The notes under the pieces: generated by a model | What the model was told of the DNA's origin: nothing | The model's input: the letters and a program-made list of their open reading frames with translations, nothing else | Database searches by the model: none | Origin: Datnioides undecimradiatus | Taxonomy: Eukaryota > Chordata > Actinopteri > Lobotiformes > Datnioididae | Direction of reading: 5' to 3' | Length of the DNA stretch: 64,000 nucleotides | Assembly (NCBI GenBank): GCA_008933995.1 | Contig: WARS01000090.1 | Coordinates: 1,745,501-1,809,500, forward strand | Shown here: one piece after another, positions 21,832 to 55,388 of the stretch | Numbering within the stretch: position 1 is the first letter of the stretch | How the letters are laid out: every line of letters begins with the position of its first letter | Translations under genes and position numbers: made by a program

Positions 21832-24800
21832 TCAGACAGACGGGGAGGAAGAGAGACGAGCTCTCCTTCGCTAATCCTTTCCCTCCCATCCACACACGGA
21901 ACAAGCCATCACACCCGTCGTTACGTCTCCCTGCCTGATTTTAATTGTGAGGACCCCGCCGCTTCTATTGATTTCAGACACTTGCTCAGCCCCCGCCCCC
22001 CTCCAATCCTCCGACGCCTCTCCACCACCACTGCAATTTTTCAGTTACACGAAAGAGAGGGGACACTCAGGCGGCAGCCGGTCACGTCTTGGTAAACTTC
22101 GGTCCTCATGTTCTCCGCCGCGGCCCCCCTCCAGGTTTACAAATTGCTGAAAATGGCTGGAAGAGAGTGTCGATTTATGCGCGTGTGTGTGTGTGTGTGT
22201 GTGTGCAGCTGGGAATCTGAATTTAAGCAACCTTACACAAAAAGGAGCCCCCTCTCTCCTGCTCTTGACCTTCCTTTTATCACTGGACAACAAGGAGCTG
22301 TTGGTTTTGAGGACTTCGCCGCCCAGATCGAGCGCGCGGGGCCACGCTGTGCTTTGATTCCCCGAGTTTATGATGGAAAAATGAGAAAAATCCATTACTC
22401 TTTGAAGATGTCCGAGGAGATTAGTCATGCTGTAGTTTTCACCTGCAGCAAATGTGCACACACACACACACACTCACACACACACACACACACACGTTTC
22501 TGCCACTTCCATCAGTTTTACACGAATACACACACAAACGAACACAGATGCACCTTTTCCTTCCAGGTCTTTCTTCCTCAAACACATTTGCAAACACAGG
22601 TGGTTAATGTAACCCCCCCCCCCCACACACACACACCCTGAGCAGCGTCTGTGTACAGTAGCAGCGGCCGTGTGATTAGACGGATAGCGGCCTGGGCACC
22701 CCGCACATGTGGCTCCTCTCTCCAGGGGTCTTTCCCCGGAGGCTCTCCTCCTCCGTTATTAAAGATCCTCTCCGCTCGGCTCTGCCTCGGCTCCGACGCA
22801 ACACTCCATTTTAGGAAAGGAGGCTGCCGTGACTTAATCAGGGCTTCCCTGTGAGAAATGTGGTGTGTGTGCACGCATGCGTGTGGCTGCAAGTTGAACC
22901 GCCAGGAGCCGAGCCTCGTTAAGAGCGGTATTGATTAATGCGAGGGCCCGGTTTCTGCAGCGAGTAGGTGTGTGTGTGTGTGTGCGTGTGTCAGTTTGTT
23001 CATCCTCTGCGCGGCTGCTCGTGTGTGTATTTGTTTGCTCGCGCTCGCTTCGCTTCACGTGGGCAGCCCGCTGGCTCCTCCCCCGCGCGCCGGAGGCAAG
23101 TCAGGAAGCGCCGCTATTACACAGCTGATGAATTAATCAAATCAGAAAAAATGATCACTCCCTAATACCTCGACAATAGACCTTCACTAATCAAATGCAA
23201 AATTGACCCGGGGAGCTCCCAGAATGATTTCCTCTGAGAAATCAATCCTGCCATATTACAATATTAGCTCTGAGTGGGCCGCTGCCGCTGCCGCTGCCTT
23301 CCCGACGCCACGACAACAACTGCATTAACAGTTGCGGATGGTGGCAAAGTTCTTTCATAACTGCCTGACGCGCAGATTGGCAAAGTCATCTTGTTGTGTT
23401 ATTGCAGGAGCAGGAGCTCAGCGCTCGGGGGAATAAGTCCAATCCATCACAGCAATTAGCTCAGCGTCCCTTCCACGCCAGCTCCCACTGATTCACTGCC
23501 TGTTTCCCTCCTGCAGACAGGACGCTTGGCCAACCTTGCTTTTGTTTGTCTCTCGTTGCCGCTCGTTTTCCTTTTGCTCCTTTGCTCATTGATTGTCATG
23601 CTTCTTCCCCCGTCCCTCCTCTGCGTCCCTCCCCTCCACACGCGGAGCAAACGCTTCCCGGTTTCCCCTGCTGAATTATAGAACTCGGGTTGTTTTGCCA
23701 GCAGCAAAAGCGGCTCGACACACCTTTAAAGATTCATCCTGCCGGTGTGACTGTGAGGCTGTTTCCCGCGGGCCACAAAGCATCCTCCTTTCACTGCCGC
23801 TTTCCAAAGAGTTTAAGAGGAGATGAAGGCCCCCACACAAAGTGTTCTTCTCAACAGCGAGCACAGTGCACACTGGGCTACTAACTGGGCTGCGGGCATG
23901 TCTCAGTTGTGACCATATGGCCATTTTTGGCAGTTTATCCTTCACCTTTGTTGGACCAAAAGAGTACGAAGAGGAGAGCGATGCGGCAAAGGTTGCCTGC
24001 CAAGCTTGAACTGAGAACACTGTGATCGCACGGTTCTTCACTTTATTTGACTCTTCTCCACTGCTGTTCGCGCTTTCCGTCCGTTTCGAACACGAGTGTT
24101 TTGCTTTGTTTCATTGCGTCTTCAGTTCTGAGAAAAATATCAAGATGATGCAGGATATAATCTCAATGTGTGCGTTTCACGCCATGGTGTAACTGTTGTC
24201 TTTCCCTGGTTTATAATTATTATATTATATTACTTATCAAAAATGTCATTGTCTCCAATTACTAATAGTCATCTCCTGCATACAGTTGCAATGGTACATC
24301 GTGGTAGTTGTTTCTGTCCGCGTCATTCAGCGTTACTCGTCTTTACTCGTTGGATCGCTGCAAAAAGTGAGTTTCAAGGCAGAACGGGACACCGCCGCTC
24401 TGCAGCGTGACGTATTTCTGACTTAAAACAGGATCAGCAGGTGGGATGTGAAGGTGAAGAGTGGGCGCGTCAGAACAAACACGGAGAGCTACAGTGATTC
24501 AGCGCTGGACGATCGCCTCTAGGTTGAGGTGTTACACCTGTAGACGCGCAGACGTCATCCGCCGTTGCTAGCTAGCTGCCTGAAGAGCCTTAGCTCTGCG
24601 CTGCTAAACACTTCATTATATTATATGTTGAAGCTGATTGGTTCAAGCTCGTGAAAGCAAATGACACATTTTTCCATAGAGGAAGAAAATATGAGAATGC
24701 AAATAAATGTGTTTTTATGATTTTTTGAGCACGTACTGTTAAACAGATGCACAATACGAGCGGGGCTGTGATCTAAAACAGGTTTGAAAGGCCTTTTCCA

Positions 24801-31977: not shown

Positions 31978-34900
31978 TCTCTCATACACACACACACACA
32001 CATACACATACAGTGCAATCCAAATAAGAGCCTGCCATCCAAATCTCCAAATGCAGTTAGACAGCCCCCTCCCCTCGTCATCTTACCCCCCAATGCCAAA
32101 TCCAGCCAGTGGTGCCTGTTCGTTTCCATGACAACGGCCTGAAAGTATTATATCATCAGCGAGAGGGGAAGCGGGGCAAAATTTTGCACGCATGCACACA
32201 CACACACACACACACACTTGCATTCCCTCACTGTGTGTCTTTCGCTCTTGCACACACATCCCTAAGTGCCCTCTCCCCCACCCCAGCCCTCCACTACACT
32301 CCACACTCGGAGCACACACAGCCTTGCCTCGTGTTACGTAAGACTCCCAAGCTCTTACTCAGGAGAGGTGACATCATCACCGGTAAGAAAGAGAGAGAGG
32401 GAGGGAGAGGGCGAGCGGGGTAGGGCTTGGGGGGGGCATCGTCCCTGCTCCTCTCTACTCTGCGAAGTTAAACCGCGCAGATCTTCCTCCGGACGTCCTC
32501 AGCGAGGAGTCTGTCAATTTTAAATCACCTCTGGGACGAGCGGCGAAGAAACATCAACCGCGGCGGCTCCGCATTAGTAGTTTCAGCTGGCACTGCAACC
32601 CACTCAAGACGCTCTGAATAATTCACGGTGACCACATAAGCTTATTAACACGTTCTGGGCCCTAATGAAACCATTAACACCTGGTTATCAGCGCGGCCTA
32701 CGAGAGGGATCAAACACCTTCACTCCATGAGTGAGTGAGGGGGCACCGACTTGTGGTCTGCTCTCATTAGCAGGGATGTGGAGCGAGCGTCCAGATATGA
32801 CTTCAGCCTTCTGGCTCTTCGTGGTGAGAGATCAGCAGGGTGGAAGCGCTGGGTGGAGAGCGGTGAAAGAGGGGGTCGTAGCAGGTGCGGGGGGCTTCCT
32901 GGCTCCATATTTTATATTTAAACAGCAGAGATTGCAGGAAATCCCCAAAGACTCTGGAGCACTACTCCACCTTTTCACCCCCATCTCACTGATGGTTATA
33001 AATAAATGTGAAAGATGGAGGGAGCAAGGGAGCGGCAGGTAAAGATGACAAGAGCGGTTTCCCTCTGGGTTTGGTACAGTAGTTGTTTGAGGGAGGCTTC
33101 CAGGCCATGAGCGAGCGCGACGCCGCCGCATGCATGTGCACGGCCCTCCCACTGTTCTCCTCGTCTCTGTTTCCCTCTCCATAAATAAACCCGCACGCTT
33201 GCCCGCATAGCTGCACGGCGCGTTGCTTGAGGTGATGACATCACGATCTGTCACCACAATTTAATCAATCAACAACTATTTGAGCAGTTTTATCTAAATG
33301 TCTCCCAAAACCGCGATAACTGTAATTAACGACCTCAAACTTCAGTAATTAGTCAGTTTTGCTGCATCGTCTCTGCTAGCGTCTCTCTCCCGCGCTGTGA
33401 CCCATAGACTTCACACCGCAGTGGCATCGTGCACATATAAATAGAAATTTTCAGCACTGGGAAAGTTTTTATAAAATCTTTAAAAGGTTTAAAATACAAA
33501 AAAGTGCATTTGAATGCATCCATACACTCTGCATAGTGCTAGCAAGCCAATACACCCCTGTTCCACTCTGGGGCATTTACAAATATGTGTAAGAGCGTGT
33601 GTAAGAGTTACGTTATCACTGTTAGCCTCAACTGTTGTACCTGCTGTGTGTAACGACACGTGCGGCGGAGCAAAACTGAACGTGACACAGTTCTTTGGTT
33701 AGCGAGGAGGAATCAAATAAAAGTAGTCCACGCGGTCTCGCACACTGCACCGCCTGCAGGAAGTATGCCGACGGTGCTGAAGGAGGATGAAGATGAGAAG
33801 CATAAAAGAGATTTGGCAGAAAGGCTCCAACGCGGCAGCTAGTGTGATACGCTCGGTGCATCGGAGCATAAAGAGAAAGCGAAGGTGCCGCAGAGCTCCG
33901 GCACGAGGAAAAGCTACGCAAACAGAAGCCGTCTCGATTCAGAGCCCCTCGGTGGCTCACAGTGGCTCCTTCCAAATTGCCCGGTAAATTGGACTGGCAT
34001 GGGATGGCGAGCAGGCGGGCAGGCAGCTCCGACAGGACCGTGAAGCAGGCTGAGGCAGGATGTGTCCCCCATGTGTCCTGATTGCTGATTGATACATTGA
34101 CTGCTGCTGATTGAACATAGTGAAGAAGAACGGGGGAGACCGGGATGATTGCAGAAAGGGAAACAATGGAAATCTCTCTGGCCTTCTGTGTGTGTACATG
34201 CATGTGTGTGTGTGTGTGTACTACAGCCAGCAGGGGTAGTTGGGGCCAGAGCACCATCAGCAGCTGTTAAGGGTTCATCCCAGTGACCTCACTTACAACT
34301 GCGCTAATTATGAGGCCGACTGCATCACTTCTCCTTTCTTTCTCTCTTTCTCCCCTCATGTGCTCTCACTACAGTTCACTTCCCCTACTCTCTGCTTCAT
34401 CAGCATGGCTGTTAAAACTAATATTACTCCCCGAGCTGCCGTGTTCAGGTACCATCTTTCGCACCGGAAGTTTCCTTCCTTCCATGCAACGCCGCAACGC
34501 CGTTCCCATCATACACCCGTGGCGCATGTATTTTATTTTCTTTTCTCTCCAGTCCCCCAAACATCATGCATAATGCACCGCATCTCAGCCTGAGCGCCGC
34601 ATGTAGTGCATCAAACGTCTCTGCTAATGGCGAGCGCGCCGCCGAGCAGCGGCTGCAGCAGAGGAGTGACTCCCCTCGGGTTAGGGTTAGCGGTCTATTA
34701 TTTTTGCCCACCTCTCCCTGCTGCCACTTAACCGCACTCTGCCTCGAGGAGACACTCACTCTGTTGCTATGGCGTTCGCGTTACAGTCGAGCACGCTTTA
34801 CAGGCACCCAGGCAGGAGTGCCGATATCGATGAAACAGAGCAGAGCGGACTGATGCGAGCGGCTACGTTTGCACATGCAAGTCTTAGGATTCTATCTGCT

Positions 34901-39940: not shown

Positions 39941-39976
<36 letters not shown>

Positions 39977-40159
39977 TATATGAACCGTTTTAACCATGTG
40001 TGTCCGTCTCTTCCAGCTCTGCACGAGTTCCCCACAGACCTGTTCACACACAAAGAGCGAACAGAGGGAGCTGTGGCCCTGCACGTGCTCTGTGTAAGTT
40101 TACCTTCACCTACACAACTCTGCATTCGTGTGTGCGCGCAGGTGTGTGTGTGTGCGCGC

Positions 40160-40200
<41 letters not shown>

Positions 40201-43200
40201 GCGAAACACATCAGTGAGCCACACAGTTTCACTAAGTGACGTTCCTGCATACTCTCCCCCCGCTGCTTTTAATACTCACTAAAGCGTCAAATGTTTTTAT
40301 TAATACGCGACAGAAAATAGTCCCCACTCAATGCATTGTTAACTCCATTTGAGAAAAGCTCTGGTGCTCCACTGTTTGAGGAAATGAAACTATGTAATCG
40401 TGCCCTGTTTGTTCAGATTTATGTCTCTGGTGCAAACCGCGGGGCTTGGGGGGCGGGGGGTGAAAACCACAGCGAGGGAACACAGTGTTTTGGTGTAATG
40501 ACGGGATTTGTTGACGGCATGATCGAGAAAAACATCCACCGCATTATTTACAAAGATAGTCTGATTTATTATATTTTATTCAACACATGCTTCTTGTTTC
40601 TCGAACCCGCTGTGCATAACTCACCACTTACAGTTCAGTCTCGACACCCAGATTCGAGTGTGTTAAGCTGGTAGCGGCTAATGTAGCCCCGAGCCTCAAA
40701 CACAGATGATGAGCGGCCTGCGGAGGGCTTGTGAACTCACTTCTTTCTACGTCCACGCCCCCAGATTCGTGTCTTGTTCATGCTCGTGGTCTTCAGGCCT
40801 AAGGTGGATAGACAGATAGATAAACATTATTCAGCCCAAACTGGGAAATTTCCACATTGCAGCAGCAATTTACAAGCGTTCAACATGACAAATGTACAAA
40901 AAAACAAGTATTTACAAGAGATAAAAGAGATAAATATATAAAAATAAAGTTTGCTGAATGTTAACGGTGGCCCAGAAGTTTGCAAGTACAAGCTGTCATC
41001 ACAGCTTGTCATCTGTCGCACACAGATGAGGAGTTACAAAGTCTTATTGCTTGTAACTAATAAATAATAAATACATAAACAGCAGTACTCACAAACACTT
41101 TAACGCCTTTGGAGCTGCAGCATGATAATCAAGAAACATCACAGACCCTTCTCATTAATGTACAGTTTTTATTAAATCGGAGAATAATTGCTGTTGTTAT
41201 TATGCAAAGCAAGGTTAAACACATGGTACCAATGTAAATACAGGAGGAGACGGCATCGCCTCTCCTCTCCTCTCTCCTCTCTTGCCTCTCCTCTCCTCTC
41301 CTCTCCCTTCCTTCTCCCTCCTCTCCTCCTCTGCCCTGATCTCCCCTCCTCTCCTCTCCTCTCCTCTCCTCTCTTGCCTCTCCTCTCCTCTCCTCTCCCT
41401 TCCTTCTCCCTCCTCTCCTCCTCTGCCCTGATCTCCCCTCCTCTCCTCTCCTCTCCTCTCCTCTCTTGCCTCTCCTCTCCTCTCCTCTCCCTTCCTTCTC
41501 CCTCCTCTCCTCCTCTGCCCTGATCTCCCCTCCTCTCCTCTCCTCTCCTCTCCTCTCTTGCCTCTCCTCTCCTCTCCTCTCCCTTCCTTCTCCCTCCTCT
41601 CCTCCTCTGCCCTGATCTCCCCTCCTCTCCTCTCCTCTCCTCTCCTCTCTTGCCTCTCCTCTCCTCTCCTCTCCCTTCCTTCTCCCTCCTCTCCTCCTCT
41701 GCCCTGATCTCCCCTCCTCTCCTCTCCTCTCCTCTCCTCTCTTGCCTCTCCTCTCCTCTCCTCTCCCTTCCTTCTCCCTCCTCTCCTCCTCTGCCCTGAT
41801 CTCCCCTCCTCTCCTCTTCCTGTCTCCTCTCTCCTCCTCTGCTCTCCTCTCCTTTCCTTCTCCCTCCCTCCCTCTCCCCTCTCTCCTCTCTTCTCTCCTC
41901 TCCTGTCCTCCCCTCTCCCCTCTCTCCTCTCTCCTCTCCTCTCCCTTCTCCCCTCCTCTCCTCTCCCTCTCTCATCTCCTGTCCTCCCCTCCTCTCTCCT
42001 CTCCTCTCCTCTCCCTCCTCTCCTCTACCCTCCTCTCCCTTTCCTCTCCTCTCCTCTCCTGTCCCCTCCTCTCCTCTCTCCTCTCCTCTCCTCTCCTTCC
42101 CTTCTCCCCTCCTCTCCTGTCCCCTCCTCTCCTCTCTCCTCTCCTCTCCTCTCCTTTCCTTCTCCCTCCTCTCCTCTCCCCTCCTCTCCTCTCCTCTCCT
42201 CTCCTCTCCTCTCTCCTTTCCCTTCTCCCTCCTCTCCTCTCCCCTCCTCCTCTCCTCTCCTCTCCCCTCCTCTCCTCTCCTCCTCTCCTCTCCCCTCTCC
42301 TCTCCTCTCCTTTCTTCTCCCTCCTCTCCTCTCTCTCCCTCTCCCTTTCCTTCTCCCCTCCTCTCCTCTCCTCCTCCTCCTCCTCCTCTCTCCCTCTCCT
42401 CTCCCTCTCCCTCTCTCCTCTCTCCTCTCCCCTCTCCTCTACCCTCCTCTCCTTTCCTCCCTCCCTGTCCCCTCTCCTCCTGTCCTCCCCTCCTGTCCTC
42501 ACCTTCTCCCTCCTCTCCTCCTGTCCTCATCTCCTCTCTCCTCTCCTCCTACCCTCTCCTCCTGTCCTCACCTCCTCTCCCCTCCTCCTCTCCCCTCCTC
42601 TCTCCTCTCCTCTCCTCTCCCCTCTCTCCCCTGTCCTCCCTCCTCTCCCCTCCCTCTCCTCTCCTCCCTCTCTTCTCCGGCCCTCTCCTCTCTCTCTCCC
42701 TGTCCTCTCCTCTCCTCTCTCTCTCTTCTCATTCCTCCTCCTCCCTCTCCTCTACTGTCCTCTCCTCTCCTCCCTCCCCTCCTCTCCCCCTCCCCTCCTC
42801 TCCCTCTCCTCTCTTCTCCCCTCTCCTCCCCTGCACTCCCCTCCTCTCTTCCTCCCTCTACTCTCCTGTCTCCTCTCCCCTCCCCTCTCCCTGTCCTCTC
42901 CTCCTCTCTCTCCCCTCTCTCCTCCTCTCCCTCTCCTCTCCTCTCCTCTCCCTCCTCTCTCCCTCCTCTCCCCTCTCCCTCTCCCTCTCCTCCTCTCTCT
43001 CCCCTCTCTCTCCTCTCCCTCTCCCTCTCTCCTCCCTCTCTCTCTCCTCCTCTCCTCTCTCCTCCTCTCCCCTCCTCTCCTCTCCTCTCCTCTCCTCTCT
43101 CCTCTCCCCTCCTCTCCTCTCCTCTCCTCCCTCTCCTCTCCTCTCCTCCTCCTCTCCTCTCCTCCCTCTCTCCTCCTCCCCTCCTCTCCTCTCCTCTCCT

Positions 43201-46200
43201 TTCCTCTCCTCCTCTCCCCTCCTCTCCTCTCCTCTCCCACGGCAGTATCTCATCGGTTCAGCACACGCATCACCAGCCCTCCTGGCCTCTCCGGCGTGGC
43301 CCAGCAGGGGTCACTATGCGAGGTCAAGGCTATGATGGAGCGCCTCTGCCGTCACTCTCGTATGACTGGCACAAGGCAGCGTGCAGAATGTTCCCGCACT
43401 TGATGACCCATGTCATGTTGCGCCGTTGCTAATGGTCTCTGGGAGTCTGACTGTAATGGAAGCTCCTGCCAGCAGAGCAGCTTCTCCCGGGAACTTGGCT
43501 GTGCATAAACAGACAAAGAACCACCGAATGGACCATTTTGCCATGTACATGTCTGACATTAGAGGCAATGTCACTACTTACAGGTCAGCCACCCTCTGAG
43601 GTAGCCTACTCCTGCTGCAGGAGGGCAAGTGGAAGTAACCTTTTCTAGGCGGTTTATGTAAAAACAACAAAAAAAAGCCAAAAATAAAGTGATGTGTCAT
43701 TTCATAGCAGGTGTTACTGTACTTTGTGGAGAGAATAGCAATCTGTGAGTCAGGGCCCGTACCTGCAGAGTATACCGGGTGTATTTATAAATGTGTACTG
43801 GATGCAAAATAGGCCAGTCCTGAGTCCTGAGGCATGTATTTGAACTGTGACATGCAATCCATCCACCGACATTTCCCCCAAACTGGGTCTGGGCTGTCGT
43901 ATGTGGGCGGCGGGCAGGCCAAGTGCAAGGTCTTAAACTGAGGCTACGGCTGACGTGTGGAAATTACTAATAAAGTTAATTCTGGATATTGTAAGACGTA
44001 AACTTCTTAACTTAAAGTCCACTTATTAGCTTTATTCTGAGCTTTCACGTCTTCGTTATCAATCAAAACTGGTCTCAAATCACTGATAAAGATCATTTAT
44101 TGCTTTATTGTTATTGGATCCTTTGCGATGCTGCAAATCAAGATCAGTCAGAGCGTCAGTGAATCAGCCTAAGAGTGGAAAACAACAAGAGCAGGATGCA
44201 AAAAGTAAGCAATAAAACATTTAACAAGAATTTACATGTCTCTGAATGTACTTTACTAATTATTACAACGTTAAAATCAAATGTTAATGGTGTTTCATCT
44301 GTTGAGGAGCAGATGGTGACTCACGTGGGACCTGAAAGACAAAGTTTAGGACTTTCACTTTGTTTTTCTGGGGCTTTGAATTTCAAAAAGAAGACCCGAG
44401 ACTCACGTGACTTGCTAAACAACAGCTCTGTCCCACCTCTGCTCTGCACTGAGCAGCCAGGATATATTCAATGGTATAAATGTGCTGGCAGCGCTGTCTC
44501 TCCACCTGACGTAAAGACCAGACGTAAAGCTCAATCTCGCCTGCTTTTATGAACAGGAAGTAGACGATCAGGTCTTTGAAAGGCTTTGTTACGACACAGC
44601 GTGAGAACATCCAGGCCTGGCTTTGTTGAGGCGTTCGCTGTCAGTCTGTCATCACTACCTGACATGTTCTCACTTGATCATCGCCGTCCGTCTTTCATCT
44701 CCACCCTCTCTCCGCGCTCTGTGTTGTATACAGTGGGATTTCATGCAACGATGCACCGGGACAATTTGATTCTGCTCAGGACAAGGATTTTAAATGAGGC
44801 TGCGCAGAGATCGTGCTTTGTCGCGTCAGTCAGTGATGAAATGAAATGTGCGGCAGTAAAAGTGCTGGAAACTGAATCCAATGCAATAACAGACTGGAGA
44901 CTTAATGTAATCCATTTAGTGTCACGTGTGGAATAATGCAACGAAGAGGTGAATTCACAGGGGAGCTGTAGCGTTTCATTTAGGGATAACAAATGCACGC
45001 TGGATTATTTTGCATTATGTGTCTCCTTAACTTGGACCCGTATCTCGGCGCTCCAGGTCAGAGGTCACGCTGCTTTGCTCCGTCTGTTCGGATGGTTTAT
45101 TCCAGCAGGGGAATAAGAAAAAGCCACAAACATAACCTCTGCCCCCCCCTTTTTCAATGTCAGTGTGTTTAAAAAGTGGAAAACTAACTTCCCTATTTTA
45201 AAATGTAAAACAAAACAACAAAAAAATCCGGTCCCACCGTGATGTTATTCATGAATTTTAAATGTCCGAGCCGCTAATGTACCGCGCCGCATTTGCATGG
45301 GATCACTTCCCTGAATCTTTAGCCCTCAATTACTCGACCCACTGTTTCATTTTTCATGGCAATTTGCATCTAAATTTAATGCAGCGTTCAGAGCAGAGAG
45401 GTGTTTCTTTGCTGTAACACTCGGGGGGGGGGGGGGAAACGTACAGAGATCTGCTCCAAACGCAGGCCGAGGTACCGGCGGATAAATCAGAGCTAGCTCG
45501 TTCAGCGGTGCGGCTGCTGGAACCCGTCTCGGCATGGACTCTTCACCCTGTCGTATCACACGTGCACATCGCATCGAGCCCCGTGTTCGTACCTCGCTGA
45601 TCCCCGTAATATTTATCTCTCTCTCTCCATTTGCAGACCATTTACATGTTCTGCGCCCTGGCCCTCGTCTGTGATGACTACTTCGTCCCGTCCCTGGAGA
45701 AGCTGTGTGAGGTAAGAGTGTGAGGTCCTGCGAACTTCCAGATCTTACATATTTCTTCCAGAAATTAAAACATTAATGACTCAACGAGCCAAAAAAAAAA
45801 AAGGAAAACACGTGAATTTTTAAGAGATTTACACTCAAACGCTCCCACGTTGCACTACGATACACCGCTGTGTTTCAAAAATCAAAAATACCAGGTTACA
45901 AATGAGACATTATTCTAACATTTGTTTCAGCATAATTTCTCTTATTATACATTTAAATACATATCAGACACATTTTAGACCCCCAAGCAGGAGAGAGAAG
46001 GAAGCTAAGTTTGCATTTATATCCTTATAAAGTGCTTTTTCCTCCTCATTTCCCTGCGTAAATGTTAGCAAAACTAGTTATTTGTATATTTGTATATTGT
46101 TTTAAAGTACGGTCTTACGTCTGGATCTGTCCCTGTCTTAAGGCGTTGCTAATTCACAGTTAAAAGAAGAGAAGAATAGAAATTAAGATTCATTTTTATT

Positions 46201-46998: not shown

Positions 46999-47032
<34 letters not shown>

Positions 47033-53000: not shown

Positions 53001-55388
53001 ACAGTTTAAGCTAAATAATGGACTGGTCACCGTATTGCCAAAACCTGGCCTGGTTTCAGGTGACTGTGGTCGGCTTCACTCTGGGGATTCCTGACGTCAT
53101 CATGGGCATCACCTTCCTCGCGGCAGGCACCAGCGTCCCGGACTGCATGGCTAGCGTTATAGTTGCACGGCAAGGTACGTGCACACACACACACACACTC
53201 CCAAAACACAGTTAAGTTAATATCGATATTTGCATTAAGGCTGAGTTGCTGTTAAGAGGAGGAGCTCCGCGGCAGAGTGTTGCTTTTCATAACCGACTCG
53301 TCTCCTGACTGACTGTGCGCAGACCTTGACAGTGTTGCTCTCCTTGCCTCAGGTCTGGGAGACATGGCCATCTCCAACTCCATAGGCAGTAATGTGTTTG
53401 ACATCCTGGTCGGCCTGGGCCTGCCCTGGGCGCTGCAGACGCTCTGCATCGACTACGGCTCCAACGTGAGTGCTCCTCGGCTCAGCCGGAGGAGATCCTG
53501 CCGGACTTGGACCAGAATAGAACAGAGCTTTGCTCATGAAGGACGGGAAACAATAGTGTGTAATACTCAGCGCAGAGCAGTGAGGGAGTTTAAGGTCAAC
53601 GCAAACCTGCAGCATTACACCGGGGCAGCTCACAGTTTATCACCTCACGCTGTGAAGACGTTACGTGTTGATTGGTCCGCTGATTACTCTTCACACTAGA
53701 AAAAAGAAATTTGGAATAGGTGCAAGAAAAGTGGGTCCCTGGCTGCATGAATACAGGAAGTACATCTCTGAGTGTGCATCAGGCCTCTGCCTTCTTTTGT
53801 TTTGACGGTTTGAAAAAGCCCTGTAATCTCTGTTTGTCTCCTCAGATTCATCTTAACAGCAGAGGACTTATATTCTCTGTCGGACTCCTGTTAGCCTCAG
53901 TGTTCTTCACAGTAAGTACCAGAGCGTCTCCGTTGTTCTGGGTGCTGAAGGGCATTGAGCTAACACCTTTGTGGTTTTGAATCCAACCAGCGGATTTGCA
54001 TAGAGACGTGAGGCGTTAGCTGTTAGCCGTGGACAAAGCAAAACAGATGAACAGCACATGAACACGGTTAGCACCTCGCCCCACAGCACAAAGGTCCCGG
54101 GTTCGATTCCCAACTGGGGCTTTTCTGTGTTGACTTGTGCTGCCTGTGTCTGCGTGGGTTCCCTCCGGGTGCCTTCCACCACCCAGACACATGCGTGACA
54201 GGTGAACTGGGAACTTTAGATGAGTTTGTTTGTCTGTGTCTAAGACTAGAGACCGGTCCTGGGTCTCCAGCCTCCTGCCCAATGACTGCTGGACTGCAGG
54301 ATATGCTCCTGCAACCCCCCCGCAACCCAGAAAGGGATAAAGCACAGAAAATGGATGATCAATTGAGTAAATCAGGTTTTTTGAGAGAAATGCATGTAAA
54401 AGGGTGCGTCGTTCATCCAACTGGTGCATAAGGGAGGATTATTTCATTCGCCAAAATGAATTCCACTGATCCACAAGGCCCAAGGGGGCGATCGCACAGA
54501 GGTGTGTCTCTAAAAAAAACACGCTGCCGGTGAAACCATTTGTCTCTGCTGGCTCCTCTTTTGCGATGCAAGTCGTGTTTTTCCCGTTTATTCCAGACGA
54601 GTTTAGATATTTCGCCCAGGCAGCCGATCAAATCAAGCCAGGAGGCGGGCTTTACTACCTCGCTACTGCATTCCTGCTTTTTGACGCAGGCAGATTTGGG
54701 AACAGTGAGATAAAATCGTATCTGGTCGCCTGGTCTCGCACCTGGTTTCGCTTCACAGGTGAACCAGTTCTGCCTGAAGAACTCTGCTCAGGTGTTTTCG
54801 AAGCGACTGTGCACCAAGTAGCTGCAGAGAGTGCGTGTGCACAAGTGTAAAGTGTTTTAAAACCAACACTTTTTAACTTTTATGTTCATTAGTTCTTCTT
54901 TTCTGCCTTTATTGACGTGACGCTGCGTTTCTTGGCGTTTCTTCTACTGCCACCTGCAGATAAGTGGAATAGTGTGAAATCATTGGCTGGACTCTTCATT
55001 GCATCATCAAGGTGTGCATGCTGGGAGTCCTTGTGCATGAGGGACATAGATCAGGGACGGTCCCGCTGCTTTTTTTGTGATCTAAACACCATTAAAGCAG
55101 TTCACAGCAAACAAATGTGCAAAATCATCTCAAAGGTATCTCAAACTCTTGACCTCTGAAGCCCATCTCTCCCTTTGTGTAGACATGTTTCTGATTGCGA
55201 CAGCCACAAGCTAACCCTCCACCCTCCACCAACAGGTTCTCGGCGTCCATTTGAACAAATGGACTCTGGACTGGCGACTGGGCTTGGCCTGCCTGATCCT
55301 GTACGCCATCTTTCTCTGCTTCTCCATCCTCATCGAGTTCAACGTCTTCATCTTCGTCAACCTCCCCATGTGCCGAGACATCCACTGA
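15726..55388 (+). CDS. slc24a3: Sodium/potassium/calcium exchanger 3 (NCKX3), complete, 17 exons
   Basis: Plasma-membrane antiporter that extrudes Ca2+ plus K+ in exchange for Na+. Exons: 15726-15924, 19268-19396, 40017-40093, 45637-45711, 46354-46438, 47055-47158, 48941-49015, 49604-49629, 49715-49768, 49857-49990, 51590-51750, 52215-52485, 52580-52746, 53060-53174, 53353-53465, 53846-53911, 55236-55388. They total 2,004 nt (667 aa; human ~644), all GT-AG and phase-consistent. Visible are an N-terminal hydrophobic segment (41-62), sequons NSS and NCT (92, 105), the alpha-1 repeat with [10 protein letters not shown] (Glu182), a long acidic cytosolic loop with [12 protein letters not shown] (429-440), and the alpha-2 repeat with [10 protein letters not shown] (Asp547) and SNVFDI (Asp574). 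These acidic residues align with the cation-binding residues of NCKX2 (Glu188, Asp548, Asp575). [20 protein letters not shown] and the NETENEN loop point to paralog 3 rather than 1, 2, 4 or 5. The C-terminus is [11 protein letters not shown]. Confidence 0.96.
16202..16227. repeat. Alternating GT/GC/GT tract, Z-DNA-prone
   Basis: 26 nt of perfect purine-pyrimidine alternation: (GT)2, six GC steps, then (GT)4-5. It lies ~280 bp inside intron 1. Confidence 0.9.
16680..16815. promoter_or_regulatory. slc24a3: Candidate intron-1 enhancer/conserved noncoding element
   Basis: TGAGTCAGC (16720-16728, AP-1/MAF-type), ATGCATTTATCA, and the perfect 12-bp palindrome ATGAATATTCAT (16779-16790), which resembles a POU-dimer (MORE-type) site, lie within 140 bp. 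Conservation was not tested. Confidence 0.35.
17546..17582. repeat. (GGAGGGAT)n minisatellite
   Basis: About four units of an 8-bp purine-rich repeat. It yields spurious Pro/Ser-rich frames on the minus strand. Confidence 0.85.
19268..19396 (+). CDS. slc24a3: slc24a3 exon 2: extracellular N-terminal segment
   Basis: The acceptor TTCCAG|GTTTCG completes a Gly codon, and the donor is CCAG|GTAAGA. Residues 67-109 are polar and acidic, with sequons NSS and NCT. NCTTP just before the next exon's ALHEFP matches the glycosylated segment of NCKX proteins. This exon diverges fast. Confidence 0.9.
21040..21345 (-). repeat. Degenerate dispersed repeat remnants
   Basis: 21265-21288 is the reverse complement of 14476-14499 with 3 mismatches in 24 (GGGAGTTGT core). 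The preceding GCTGAAATGCTAACAGCAGC resembles a common fish interspersed repeat rich in GCTAACA. Family not determined. Confidence 0.4.
21799..21828. repeat. (GA)15 microsatellite
   Basis: Perfect GA tract in intron 2, followed by CAGTCAGACAGACGG. Confidence 0.95.
22182..22205. repeat. (GT)12 microsatellite
   Basis: Perfect GT tract in intron 2. Confidence 0.9.
22456..22495. repeat. (CA)n microsatellite, one interruption
   Basis: Two CA blocks split by CTC. It is complementary to the (GT)12 at 22182, about 250 nt upstream. Confidence 0.9.
22968..22990. repeat. (GT)n microsatellite
   Basis: Imperfect GT tract with GTGCGTGTG in intron 2. Confidence 0.85.
23105..23290. promoter_or_regulatory. 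slc24a3: Candidate conserved noncoding element, intron 2
   Basis: TAATCAAAT occurs twice 54 bp apart (23134-23142, 23188-23196), with ATGCAAAATT, GACAATAG (SOX-like) and AAATCAAT (ONECUT-like). The patch is free of simple repeats, unlike its surroundings. Inference from motif density only. Confidence 0.35.
25361..25385. repeat. (GCC)n trinucleotide repeat
   Basis: About eight GCC/GCT units in intron 2. It is not within an exon, so it does not encode a poly-Ala or poly-Pro run in a recognised protein. Confidence 0.9.
25998..26024. repeat. (CA)n(TA)n compound microsatellite
   Basis: ACACAC... passes directly into TATATATATATC in intron 2. Confidence 0.9.
28581..28623. repeat. (GT)21 microsatellite
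   Basis: Perfect tract in intron 2, probably polymorphic. Confidence 0.95.
29825..30190. promoter_or_regulatory. slc24a3: Candidate homeodomain-rich noncoding element, intron 2
   Basis: CCTAATTAACTATTAG, CATAATTAGCC, ATTCATAATGG and ATTCATTAATGG are spread over 300 bp, interrupted by a (CA)n at 29911. Homeodomain core sites cluster here. Not tested for conservation. Confidence 0.3.
30285..30470. promoter_or_regulatory. slc24a3: Candidate conserved noncoding element, intron 2
   Basis: Dense run of TTATTAC, TTATCATTCC, GATTACATTAAAC and CATTACGTTAATGAATGAG without simple repeats. Looks enhancer-like; motif inference only. Confidence 0.3.
30551..30581. repeat. (GATCCT)5 hexanucleotide repeat
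   Basis: Five near-perfect GATCCT units; every unit contains a GATC site. Confidence 0.9.
31812..32008. repeat. Cluster of three (CA)n tracts
   Basis: Tracts at 31812-31842, 31945-31975 and 31987-32008; a further (CA)n lies at 32195-32218. All on the same strand, intron 2. Confidence 0.9.
32530..32720. promoter_or_regulatory. slc24a3: Candidate conserved noncoding element, intron 2
   Basis: CATTAGTAG, GAATAATTCACGG, GCTTATTAACACG, CCTAATGAAACC and CATTAACACC within 150 bp. Same reasoning and limits as the other patches. Confidence 0.25.
39943..39974. repeat. (AC)16 microsatellite, 42 nt upstream of exon 3
   Basis: Perfect tract ending just before the branch-point/polypyrimidine zone of exon 3. 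CA repeats in pre-mRNA are known hnRNP L targets. Confidence 0.95.
40017..40093 (+). CDS. slc24a3: slc24a3 exon 3: [10 protein letters not shown] segment
   Basis: 77 nt; acceptor CTTCCAG, donor TGT|GTAAGT. Encodes (A)[25 protein letters not shown], the conserved run into the first transport-domain helix. Flanked by (AC)16 at 39943-39974 and (GT)18 at 40162-40198. Skipping it would break the frame. Confidence 0.96.
40128..40198. repeat. (GT)n with GCGCGCA units, 35 nt downstream of exon 3
   Basis: Two GTGTGCGCGCAG blocks, then a perfect (GT)18 at 40162-40198. It is complementary to the (AC)16 on the other side of the exon. Confidence 0.95.
40807..41010 (-). mobile_element. 3' end of a LINE-type retrotransposon, minus strand
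   Basis: Read on the minus strand: ...GCAATGTGGAAATTTCCCAG, TTTGGGCTGAATAATGTTTA, then TCTATCTGTCTATC. This is the familiar fish non-LTR 3' end (GGAAATTTCCC...AATAAAGTATCTATC). The 5' boundary of the copy is unclear. Confidence 0.65.
41259..43238. repeat. ~1.98-kb CT-rich polypyrimidine satellite with a 92-bp higher-order unit
   Basis: Almost every base on the plus strand is C or T, built from CTCCT/CCTCT. From ~41259 to ~41820 the marker CTGCCCTGATCTCCCC recurs at exactly 92-bp spacing (the GAT starts at 41338, 41430, 41522, 41614, 41706 and 41798), giving about six near-identical units. The rest, to 43238, is degenerate CTCCT. Stop codons are rare in such sequence, so long Ser/Pro/Leu frames (plus) and Glu/Arg/Gly frames (minus) occur by composition and are not genes. 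Confidence 0.97.
45235..45385. promoter_or_regulatory. slc24a3: Candidate intron-3 element with two octamer motifs
   Basis: Exact octamer ATTTGCAT occurs at 45291-45298 and 45362-45369, with TTATTCATGAATTTTAAATG and TAAATTTAATG nearby. Two perfect POU octamers within 80 bp of repeat-free sequence suggest an enhancer. Confidence 0.4.
45423..45436. repeat. G14 homopolymer
   Basis: Uninterrupted G-run in intron 3, able to form intermolecular G-quadruplexes. Its length is prone to sequencing error. Confidence 0.9.
45637..45711 (+). CDS. slc24a3: slc24a3 exon 4: first core membrane helix
   Basis: 75 nt; acceptor TTTGCAG, donor GAG|GTAAGA. Encodes [20 protein letters not shown] then EKLCE, nearly identical across NCKX3/4. 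Confidence 0.97.
45712..46353 (+). other. slc24a3: slc24a3 intron 4, 642 nt
   Basis: AT-rich; no feature beyond the splice sites. Confidence 0.9.
46354..46438 (+). CDS. slc24a3: slc24a3 exon 5: alpha-1 repeat, first half
   Basis: 85 nt; acceptor TCTCGCAG, donor ATAG|GTACCC. Encodes [20 protein letters not shown] then PELFTSII. Glu182 aligns with NCKX2 Glu188, which is essential for cation transport. Confidence 0.97.
46439..47054 (+). other. slc24a3: slc24a3 intron 5 with two (TG)n tracts
   Basis: 616 nt. (TG)n at 46832-46870 and a perfect (TG)14 at 47002-47029, the latter followed by GCGCACTTGCTCGTTCTCTC and CCCCAG. See the finding on exon 6. Confidence 0.9.
47055..47158 (+). CDS. slc24a3: slc24a3 exon 6: alpha-1 repeat, second half
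   Basis: 104 nt; acceptor CTCCCCCAG, donor CAG|GTATGA. Encodes [20 protein letters not shown] then [15 protein letters not shown]. The acceptor lies 25 nt after a (TG)14 tract. Confidence 0.97.
47159..48940 (+). other. slc24a3: slc24a3 intron 6, 1.8 kb
   Basis: No repeat or gene recognised. The frame at 47778-48242 has no resemblance to a known protein. Confidence 0.8.
48941..49015 (+). CDS. slc24a3: slc24a3 exon 7: membrane helix
   Basis: 75 nt; acceptor CCTTGCAG, donor GCG|GTAAGA. Encodes [20 protein letters not shown] then IALIA, a membrane segment typical of NCKX3. Confidence 0.96.
49016..49603 (+). other. slc24a3: slc24a3 intron 7 with a CTCF-like motif
   Basis: 588 nt. CGCCCTCTAGTGGC at 49523-49536 is, on the minus strand, GCCACTAGAGGGCG, close to the CTCF core and lying 68 nt before microexon 8. 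Confidence 0.5.
49604..49629 (+). CDS. slc24a3: slc24a3 exon 8: 26-nt microexon
   Basis: Encodes FIYDEKVC plus two bases of Trp. The acceptor is TTATTTTTAG and the donor is GCTG|GTGCGT, a weaker donor. It is followed by an 85-nt intron. FIYDEKV is invariant in NCKX3, so the exon is real despite its size. Confidence 0.93.
49715..49768 (+). CDS. slc24a3: slc24a3 exon 9: membrane helix
   Basis: 54 nt; acceptor GTGTCCAG, donor ATGAA|GTGAGT. Completes [19 protein letters not shown], closing the first membrane domain. Confidence 0.95.
49857..49990 (+). CDS. slc24a3: slc24a3 exon 10: start of cytosolic loop
   Basis: 134 nt; acceptor CGTCAG, donor AAAG|GTAACG. Encodes [32 protein letters not shown] and [13 protein letters not shown] and CDATxVLLKK are NCKX3-like. 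Confidence 0.95.
49991..51589 (+). other. slc24a3: slc24a3 intron 10, 1.6 kb
   Basis: Two adjacent short hairpins (CTATC-CTAC-GATAG, then CGACC...GGTCG) at ~51055-51093 are followed by TTTTTT. Nothing else recognised; frames at 50381-51039 have no family match. Confidence 0.6.
51590..51750 (+). CDS. slc24a3: slc24a3 exon 11: conserved loop segment
   Basis: 161 nt; acceptor CCCCGCAG, donor GAG|GTACAC. Encodes [38 protein letters not shown] and [13 protein letters not shown], the best discriminator for paralog 3. Confidence 0.96.
51751..52214 (+). other. slc24a3: slc24a3 intron 11, 464 nt
   Basis: Unremarkable AT-rich sequence between GTACAC and TTTCCAG. Confidence 0.9.
52215..52485 (+). CDS. 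slc24a3: slc24a3 exon 12: variable acidic loop
   Basis: 271 nt; acceptor TTTCCAG, donor CCAG|GTACAG. Begins [10 protein letters not shown] and ends in a Glu/Asn/Asp-rich run (429-455) followed by GPLEPFKVP. The poorly conserved middle (Gly/Arg-rich) is longer than in human and accounts for most of the extra protein length. Confidence 0.94.
52580..52746 (+). CDS. slc24a3: slc24a3 exon 13: first helices of second membrane domain
   Basis: 167 nt after a 94-nt intron with a C-rich acceptor. Encodes [20 protein letters not shown] then [20 protein letters not shown] and LSYIMVWM. The donor is ATG|GTCAGT, with C at +3 instead of a purine, and is the only place the phases close. Confidence 0.93.
52747..53059 (+). 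other. slc24a3: slc24a3 intron 13, 313 nt
   Basis: Starts with the non-consensus GTCAGT donor; otherwise AT-rich and featureless. Confidence 0.85.
53060..53174 (+). CDS. slc24a3: slc24a3 exon 14: alpha-2 repeat, first half
   Basis: 115 nt; acceptor GGTTTCAG, donor CAAG|GTACGT. Encodes [20 protein letters not shown] then [18 protein letters not shown]. Asp547 corresponds to NCKX2 Asp548. A (CA)9 tract starts 8 nt into the intron. Confidence 0.97.
53353..53465 (+). CDS. slc24a3: slc24a3 exon 15: alpha-2 repeat, second half
   Basis: 113 nt; acceptor GCCTCAG, donor AAC|GTGAGT. Encodes [20 protein letters not shown] then [11 protein letters not shown]. Asp574 in SNVFDI corresponds to NCKX2 Asp575, the residue that confers K+ dependence. 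Confidence 0.97.
53466..53845 (+). other. slc24a3: slc24a3 intron 15, 380 nt
   Basis: No repeat or gene recognised. Confidence 0.85.
53846..53911 (+). CDS. slc24a3: slc24a3 exon 16: membrane helix
   Basis: 66 nt; acceptor TCTCCTCAG, donor ACA|GTAAGT. Encodes [20 protein letters not shown] then FT. Confidence 0.96.
53912..55235 (+). other. slc24a3: slc24a3 intron 16, 1.3 kb
   Basis: Contains the SINE-like element (54050-54355) and otherwise no recognisable feature. Confidence 0.9.
54050..54355 (+). mobile_element. tRNA-headed SINE-like element in intron 16
   Basis: Begins GGTTAGCACC... and has a Pol III box B, GGTTCGATTCC (54100-54110). It then has the conserved middle TGTCTGCGTGGGTTCCCTCC, followed by CCAATGACTGCTGGACTGCA and GAAAGGGATAAAGCACAGAA, and ends AATGGATGATC. 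This order is that of a widespread fish interspersed repeat. The tRNA-like head is degenerate (poor box A, no intact cloverleaf), so it is not a tRNA gene. It lies in the sense direction of slc24a3. Confidence 0.75.
55236..55388 (+). CDS. slc24a3: slc24a3 exon 17: last helix and stop
   Basis: The acceptor is CACCAACAG. 50 codons plus [53 protein letters not shown]. Length and ending match the family. Confidence 0.97.
   Translation, partial: VLGVHLNKWTLDWRLGLACLILYAIFLCFSILIEFNVFIFVNLPMCRDIH

Follow-up and report, generated by a model that had tools for sequence, protein, structure and literature searches.

Do complementary dinucleotide repeats on the two sides of a short exon govern its splicing, or do such repeats simply tend to lie near splice sites? 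Exon 3 of a K+-dependent Na+/Ca2+ exchanger gene (slc24a3-like) raises this question in the window, i.e. the whole stretch of DNA analysed here (G000:C24:1745501-1809500, 64,000 nt within a 581-Mb genome). Paralogous genes of the same genome, found on contigs C13, C307 and C493, were used for comparison.

The gene and its exon 3

Exons 2-15 of the gene were placed on the + strand of the window by comparing its open frames with the paralogous C13 stretch and by reading splice sites; exon 15 was placed by reading and with the help of matching sequence on C307 and C493. The model covers these exons, exon 1 and any exons beyond 15 lying outside it. Some exon ends are heuristic, and the assigned exon 2 acceptor is probably located within coding sequence. 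Exons 2-7 join into one open frame, which confirms the exon phases (in this joined frame, the end of exon 7 is 2 nt short of that used in the later exon scoring). The resulting peptide of 143 residues matches the Na_Ca_ex domain (PF01699, E=4.1e-26). Among NCBIfam models it matches best TIGR00927, for K+-dependent exchangers (E=1.1e-56), with 192 bits against a whole-protein cut-off of 710, the query being a 143-aa part of the protein only. No K+-dependent exchanger was present among the 10 matches listed from a PDB search. As judged from the profile matches, the window gene is a member of the K+-dependent Na+/Ca2+ exchanger (SLC24) family. The original prediction named it slc24a3, which is borne out at the family level; the specific name, taken from human sequence, is no more than plausible.

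The features around exon 3 were read on the + strand. A perfect (AC)16 microsatellite (39943..39974) stands at the 3' end of intron 2 and ends 42 nt before exon 3, exactly as had been described. The segment between this tract and the exon (39988..40016) contains the intron 2 acceptor and a branch-point-like TTTTAAC (39988-39994), a putative branch point 24 nt upstream of exon 3 that is accompanied by a short pyrimidine tract. Exon 3 (40017..40093; phase 1 in, phase 0 out) was defined by paralog comparison, the joined frame and the profile matches, and its length is 77 nt in 4/4 paralogs scored. It is bordered by ag upstream and by the intron 3 donor gtaagt (40094..40099) downstream, the latter preceded by T, not G. 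By eye, the splice signals of exon 3 look good. An interrupted GT-rich tract follows (40128..40198), with runs of 7 nt (40128-40134), 13 nt (40142-40154) and 37 nt (40162-40198) that begin 34, 48 and 68 nt past the exon end. The last run is (GT)18G and holds the perfect (GU)18 of a tract that had been announced about 35 nt past the donor. Complementary arms are present in both introns adjoining exon 3, which is the arrangement of an exon loop-out. Further into intron 3, a 2-kb pyrimidine array of CCTCT type, with a period of 5 or 92, extends from 41259 to 43237.

Predicted pairing across exon 3

An isolated AC/GU duplex was computed to contain 32 pairs, at -62.8 kcal/mol. Upon equilibrium folding of 341-, 701- and 1301-nt contexts, the AC bases are predicted to pair with 40142-40198 at a mean probability of 0.99-1.00, a figure that applies to naked RNA at equilibrium. 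The proposal of a duplex of about 32 bp looping out exon 3 is thus supported computationally, with near-complete predicted pairing. None of 100 shuffled sequences folded as low as the minimum-energy fold (z = -3.26), a result to which we give little weight since pairing of an AC with a GT tract is inevitable. Intron 3 has no AC tract of at least 12 nt and the nearest GT tract in intron 2 lies at 34203-34219, so that the partner across the exon is the nearest one. Skipping of the 77 nt had been expected to shift the frame. This is confirmed: when exon 2 is joined to exon 4 without exon 3, stop codons arise within exon 4.

The predicted pairing, the proximity of the two partners and the stops in exon 4 all favour the explanation that AC-GU pairing across exon 3 lowers its inclusion, with a premature stop and likely decay as the outcome, or promotes a single-exon circle, repeat length tuning exchanger output. 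We consider this explanation unlikely. A single-exon circle of 77 nt would be unusually short. The splice sites of the exon look good, as noted above, and the pairing is sensitive to distance: because the arms are 168-256 nt apart, AC-GU pairing probability is reduced to 0.27 when base-pair span is limited to 200 nt, and to 0 at 150 nt. The exon 3 donor is mostly paired in the full fold (unpaired probability 0.14) and is still mostly paired when the AC-GU stem is blocked (0.26). Most of its predicted pairing is therefore local and not caused by the tracts.

Tracts beside the exons of paralogous genes

The same explanation is weakened by comparison with the paralogs. None of the other three exon 3 copies scored in this genome (C13, C307, C493) has an AC/GT tract of at least 12 nt within 80 nt of the exon. 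The arms are not conserved among these related genes, and conservation was rejected as support for a function of the tracts. In contrast to the tracts of exon 3, a GT tract before exon 6 and an AC tract after exon 13 recur at the same exons and with the same polarity in the window gene and in the C13 copy. The former is in the window gene a (TG)14 of 28 nt (47002..47029, + strand) ending 25 nt before exon 6, and the latter a CA tract of 17 nt (53182..53198, + strand) beginning 7 nt past exon 13.

To see how general such neighbours are, we scored 47 exons of the four paralogous genes (14 in the window, 12 on C13, 11 on C307 and 10 on C493) for AC/GT tracts of at least 12 nt within 80 nt of the exon, with random placement as the null. 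The set is without exons 11 and 15 of C13, exons 2, 9 and 11 of C307 and C493, and C493 exon 6, for which no GT donor was found; the exon 10 acceptors on C307 and C493 are doubtful. On the minus strand of C493, the expected donor of exon 6 reads CAG followed by gc, possibly that of a GC-AG intron. Tracts were found in 11/94 flanks versus 2.31 expected at random, and complementary tracts on both sides in 3/47 exons versus 0.09, counts that describe a tendency and not a rate, the sample being small and its exons paralogous and not independent. For tracts of at least 16 nt, the figures are 8/94 flanks versus 1.59 expected, and 2/47 exons versus 0.03 for both-sided complementary tracts. As exon 3 of the window was the ascertained case, it was also removed together with its tracts. 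The excess persists: 9/92 flanks versus 2.23 (reached in 6/5000 random placements) and 2/46 both-sided complementary exons versus 0.09 (21/5000), or, for tracts of at least 16 nt, 6/92 flanks versus 1.53 (39/5000) and 1/46 both-sided exons versus 0.02 (114/5000). Exon 3 is not alone in having tracts next to its splice sites.

Both other enclosed exons belong to the C13 copy (minus strand). Its exon 6 lies between a GT23 ending 18 nt before it and an AC31 starting 9 nt after it, and its exon 13 between a GT32 6 nt before and an AC15 21 nt after. Their tract order is opposite to that of exon 3 in the window. Over the 47 exons, three GT and two AC tracts precede exons while four AC and two GT tracts follow them; in these family counts, the polarity of exon 3 is not clearly disfavoured. 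On C307, an AC26 is found 71 nt upstream of exon 4 and a CA14 after exon 5; the donor of C307 exon 6 is itself the start of a 12-nt GT run (gtgtgtgtgtgt). None of the 10 scored C493 exons has a tract of at least 12 nt within 80 nt.

Tract density differs widely between stretches. For AC/GT tracts of at least 12 nt, we counted 2.4 per 10 kb over 143 kb of C24, 6.2 per 10 kb over 64 kb of C13, and a total of 2 tracts (0.67 per 10 kb) over stretches of three other contigs that add up to 30 kb. As the last are tract-poor, an abundance of tracts throughout the genome is not demonstrated. For a random exon-sized stretch of the C24 and C13 regions, the probability of having AC before and GT after (at least 12 nt, within 80 nt) is about 1.0e-3, a value inflated by exon 3's own pair, which the region contains. 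By chance, enclosure by AC and GT is improbable at any one given exon, though it would not be rare over the whole exon set of a genome. AC...GT pairs at similar spacing were found at three other sites, with gaps from 149 nt: one upstream on C24 (gap 149) and two inside C13 intron 2 (gaps 270 and 214, with a further GT at 388). At neither of the two C13 intron 2 sites did we find an exon of this gene.

Because the exon 3 tracts are absent in 3/3 other paralogs scored, the flanks of the family are tract-rich and the donor and branch point look good by eye, we favour as rather likely the reading that the exon 3 tracts are ordinary AC/GT microsatellites near splice sites, with little effect on the exon. 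The tracts would have arisen in the window gene copy, or the other copies would have lost them, in a gene family where AC/GT microsatellites tend to adjoin splice sites. Their pairing in naked RNA would place exon 3 within a loop. For the cell, we infer that exon 3 is most likely included constitutively, owing to its splice sites and to proteins that bind the tracts, and that the tracts have at most a small effect dependent on allele length. Several points argue the other way. The equilibrium fold is near-complete, and a fold cannot show proteins holding the tracts apart. Complementary flanking on both sides exceeds the random expectation in the family and may therefore be favoured by some force, be it functional or mutational. 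The family tendency is itself uneven, given the tract-free exons of C493 and the tract-poor stretches of the three other contigs.

Relation to known systems

Looping out of exons in human genes is the nearest functional parallel to the exon 3 arrangement. According to passages of PMC8052449, human exons looped out by conserved complementary regions are less included, the more so with stable stems, and stable loop-outs are depleted. In both cases the exon is within the loop of a stem formed from its flanking introns, and skipping is the expected outcome. Unlike the conserved human arms, those of exon 3 are microsatellites that are missing at the paralogous exons. The human trend lends support to the explanation by pairing across exon 3, counts against our preferred reading of ordinary microsatellites, and agrees with the original prediction in so far as it held that paired flanking repeats favour skipping; the absence of the arms at 3/3 paralogous exon 3 copies goes against such an effect at exon 3. 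Neither gene name, SLC24A3 or NCKX3, was present among the literature matches listed for circular RNA or exon skipping, and the term 'dinucleotide repeats' was absent among those listed for circRNA with such repeats.

The tracts could also act singly. CA repeats are bound by hnRNP L and GU repeats by TDP-43. Binding of hnRNP L to the CA tract, and of CELF or TDP-43 to the GU tract, or folding of the latter into a pUG quadruplex, could modulate exon 3 without any duplex, which we regard as quite unlikely. The TG tract of CFTR, which sits just upstream of an acceptor, is a precedent for a variable GU repeat adjoining an exon. Whereas the effect of the CFTR repeat is demonstrated, the GU tract of exon 3 is downstream of the donor and its effect is putative. 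Passages of PMC12276007 report that the pUG quadruplex incorporates 12 repeats, a number exceeded by the (GT)18 of exon 3, that human pUG tracts are enriched near splice sites, and that pUG expansion in CFTR causes mis-splicing. A table row in PMC7404189 gives UGUGUGU as the CELF motif, which also fits an action of the single tracts. Against it, the in vitro folding half-life of pUG, at least 13 min in the same passages of PMC12276007, is taken as slow versus splicing, and here too the tracts are missing at the paralogous exons.

AC and GU tracts are best known in fish from bridged introns. In (AC)m-(GT)n introns, the AC tract is near the donor and the GU tract near the acceptor of the same intron, which is spliced without U2AF2, according to passages of PMC9024468, PMC6093180, PMC9198270 and PMC7404189 citing Lin et al. 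(2016, Genome Res); the first two describe the class as common in zebrafish. The exon 3 tracts are similar in being complementary AC and GU dinucleotide tracts near splice sites with a long predicted duplex. However, bridged introns carry their tracts at the two ends of one intron, whereas the tracts at exon 3 belong to two introns, with an exon between them, and their polarity is reversed. Near its donor, intron 2 (19397-40016) is free of tracts of at least 12 nt, the earliest lying at 22183; intron 3 (40094-45636) is likewise free of them near its acceptor. Membership in the (AC)m-(GT)n bridged-intron class was rejected on account of the reversed polarity and of introns 2 and 3 lacking a partner tract at the other end. 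One may still ask whether one tract pairs within its own intron and so aids splice-site pairing without U2AF2. The abundance of the class in zebrafish (PMC9024468, PMC6093180, in the passages cited) and the right polarity elsewhere in the family, e.g. that of the GT tract preceding exon 6 and the AC tract following exon 13 of the window and C13 genes, would speak for it. At exon 3 itself, it is the acceptor that has AC nearby and the donor that has GU, and the sequence of both adjoining introns, without partner tracts, contradicts this proposal, to which we give hardly any credence.

In teleosts, exons lying between complementary AC/GU tracts, of both polarities, may form a class of considerable size, an exon-side mirror of bridged introns in which allele lengths would set the stability of the loop-out stem and, through it, how often the exon is skipped. 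Exon 3 of the window and exons 6 and 13 of C13 would be its members. We put this forward as a long shot. Were the stem at exon 3 to work in cells, two highly mutable repeats would be tuning calcium exchanger output, an instance of splicing variation driven by microsatellites. For now, the main lesson is the excess of AC/GT tracts next to splice sites in this gene family, and single examples therefore mean little without a genome-wide and RNA-level test. A tract pair with the published bridged-intron polarity is seen in intron 5 of the C13 copy (minus strand, 907 nt), which is AC-rich just past its donor and has a GT23 near its acceptor.
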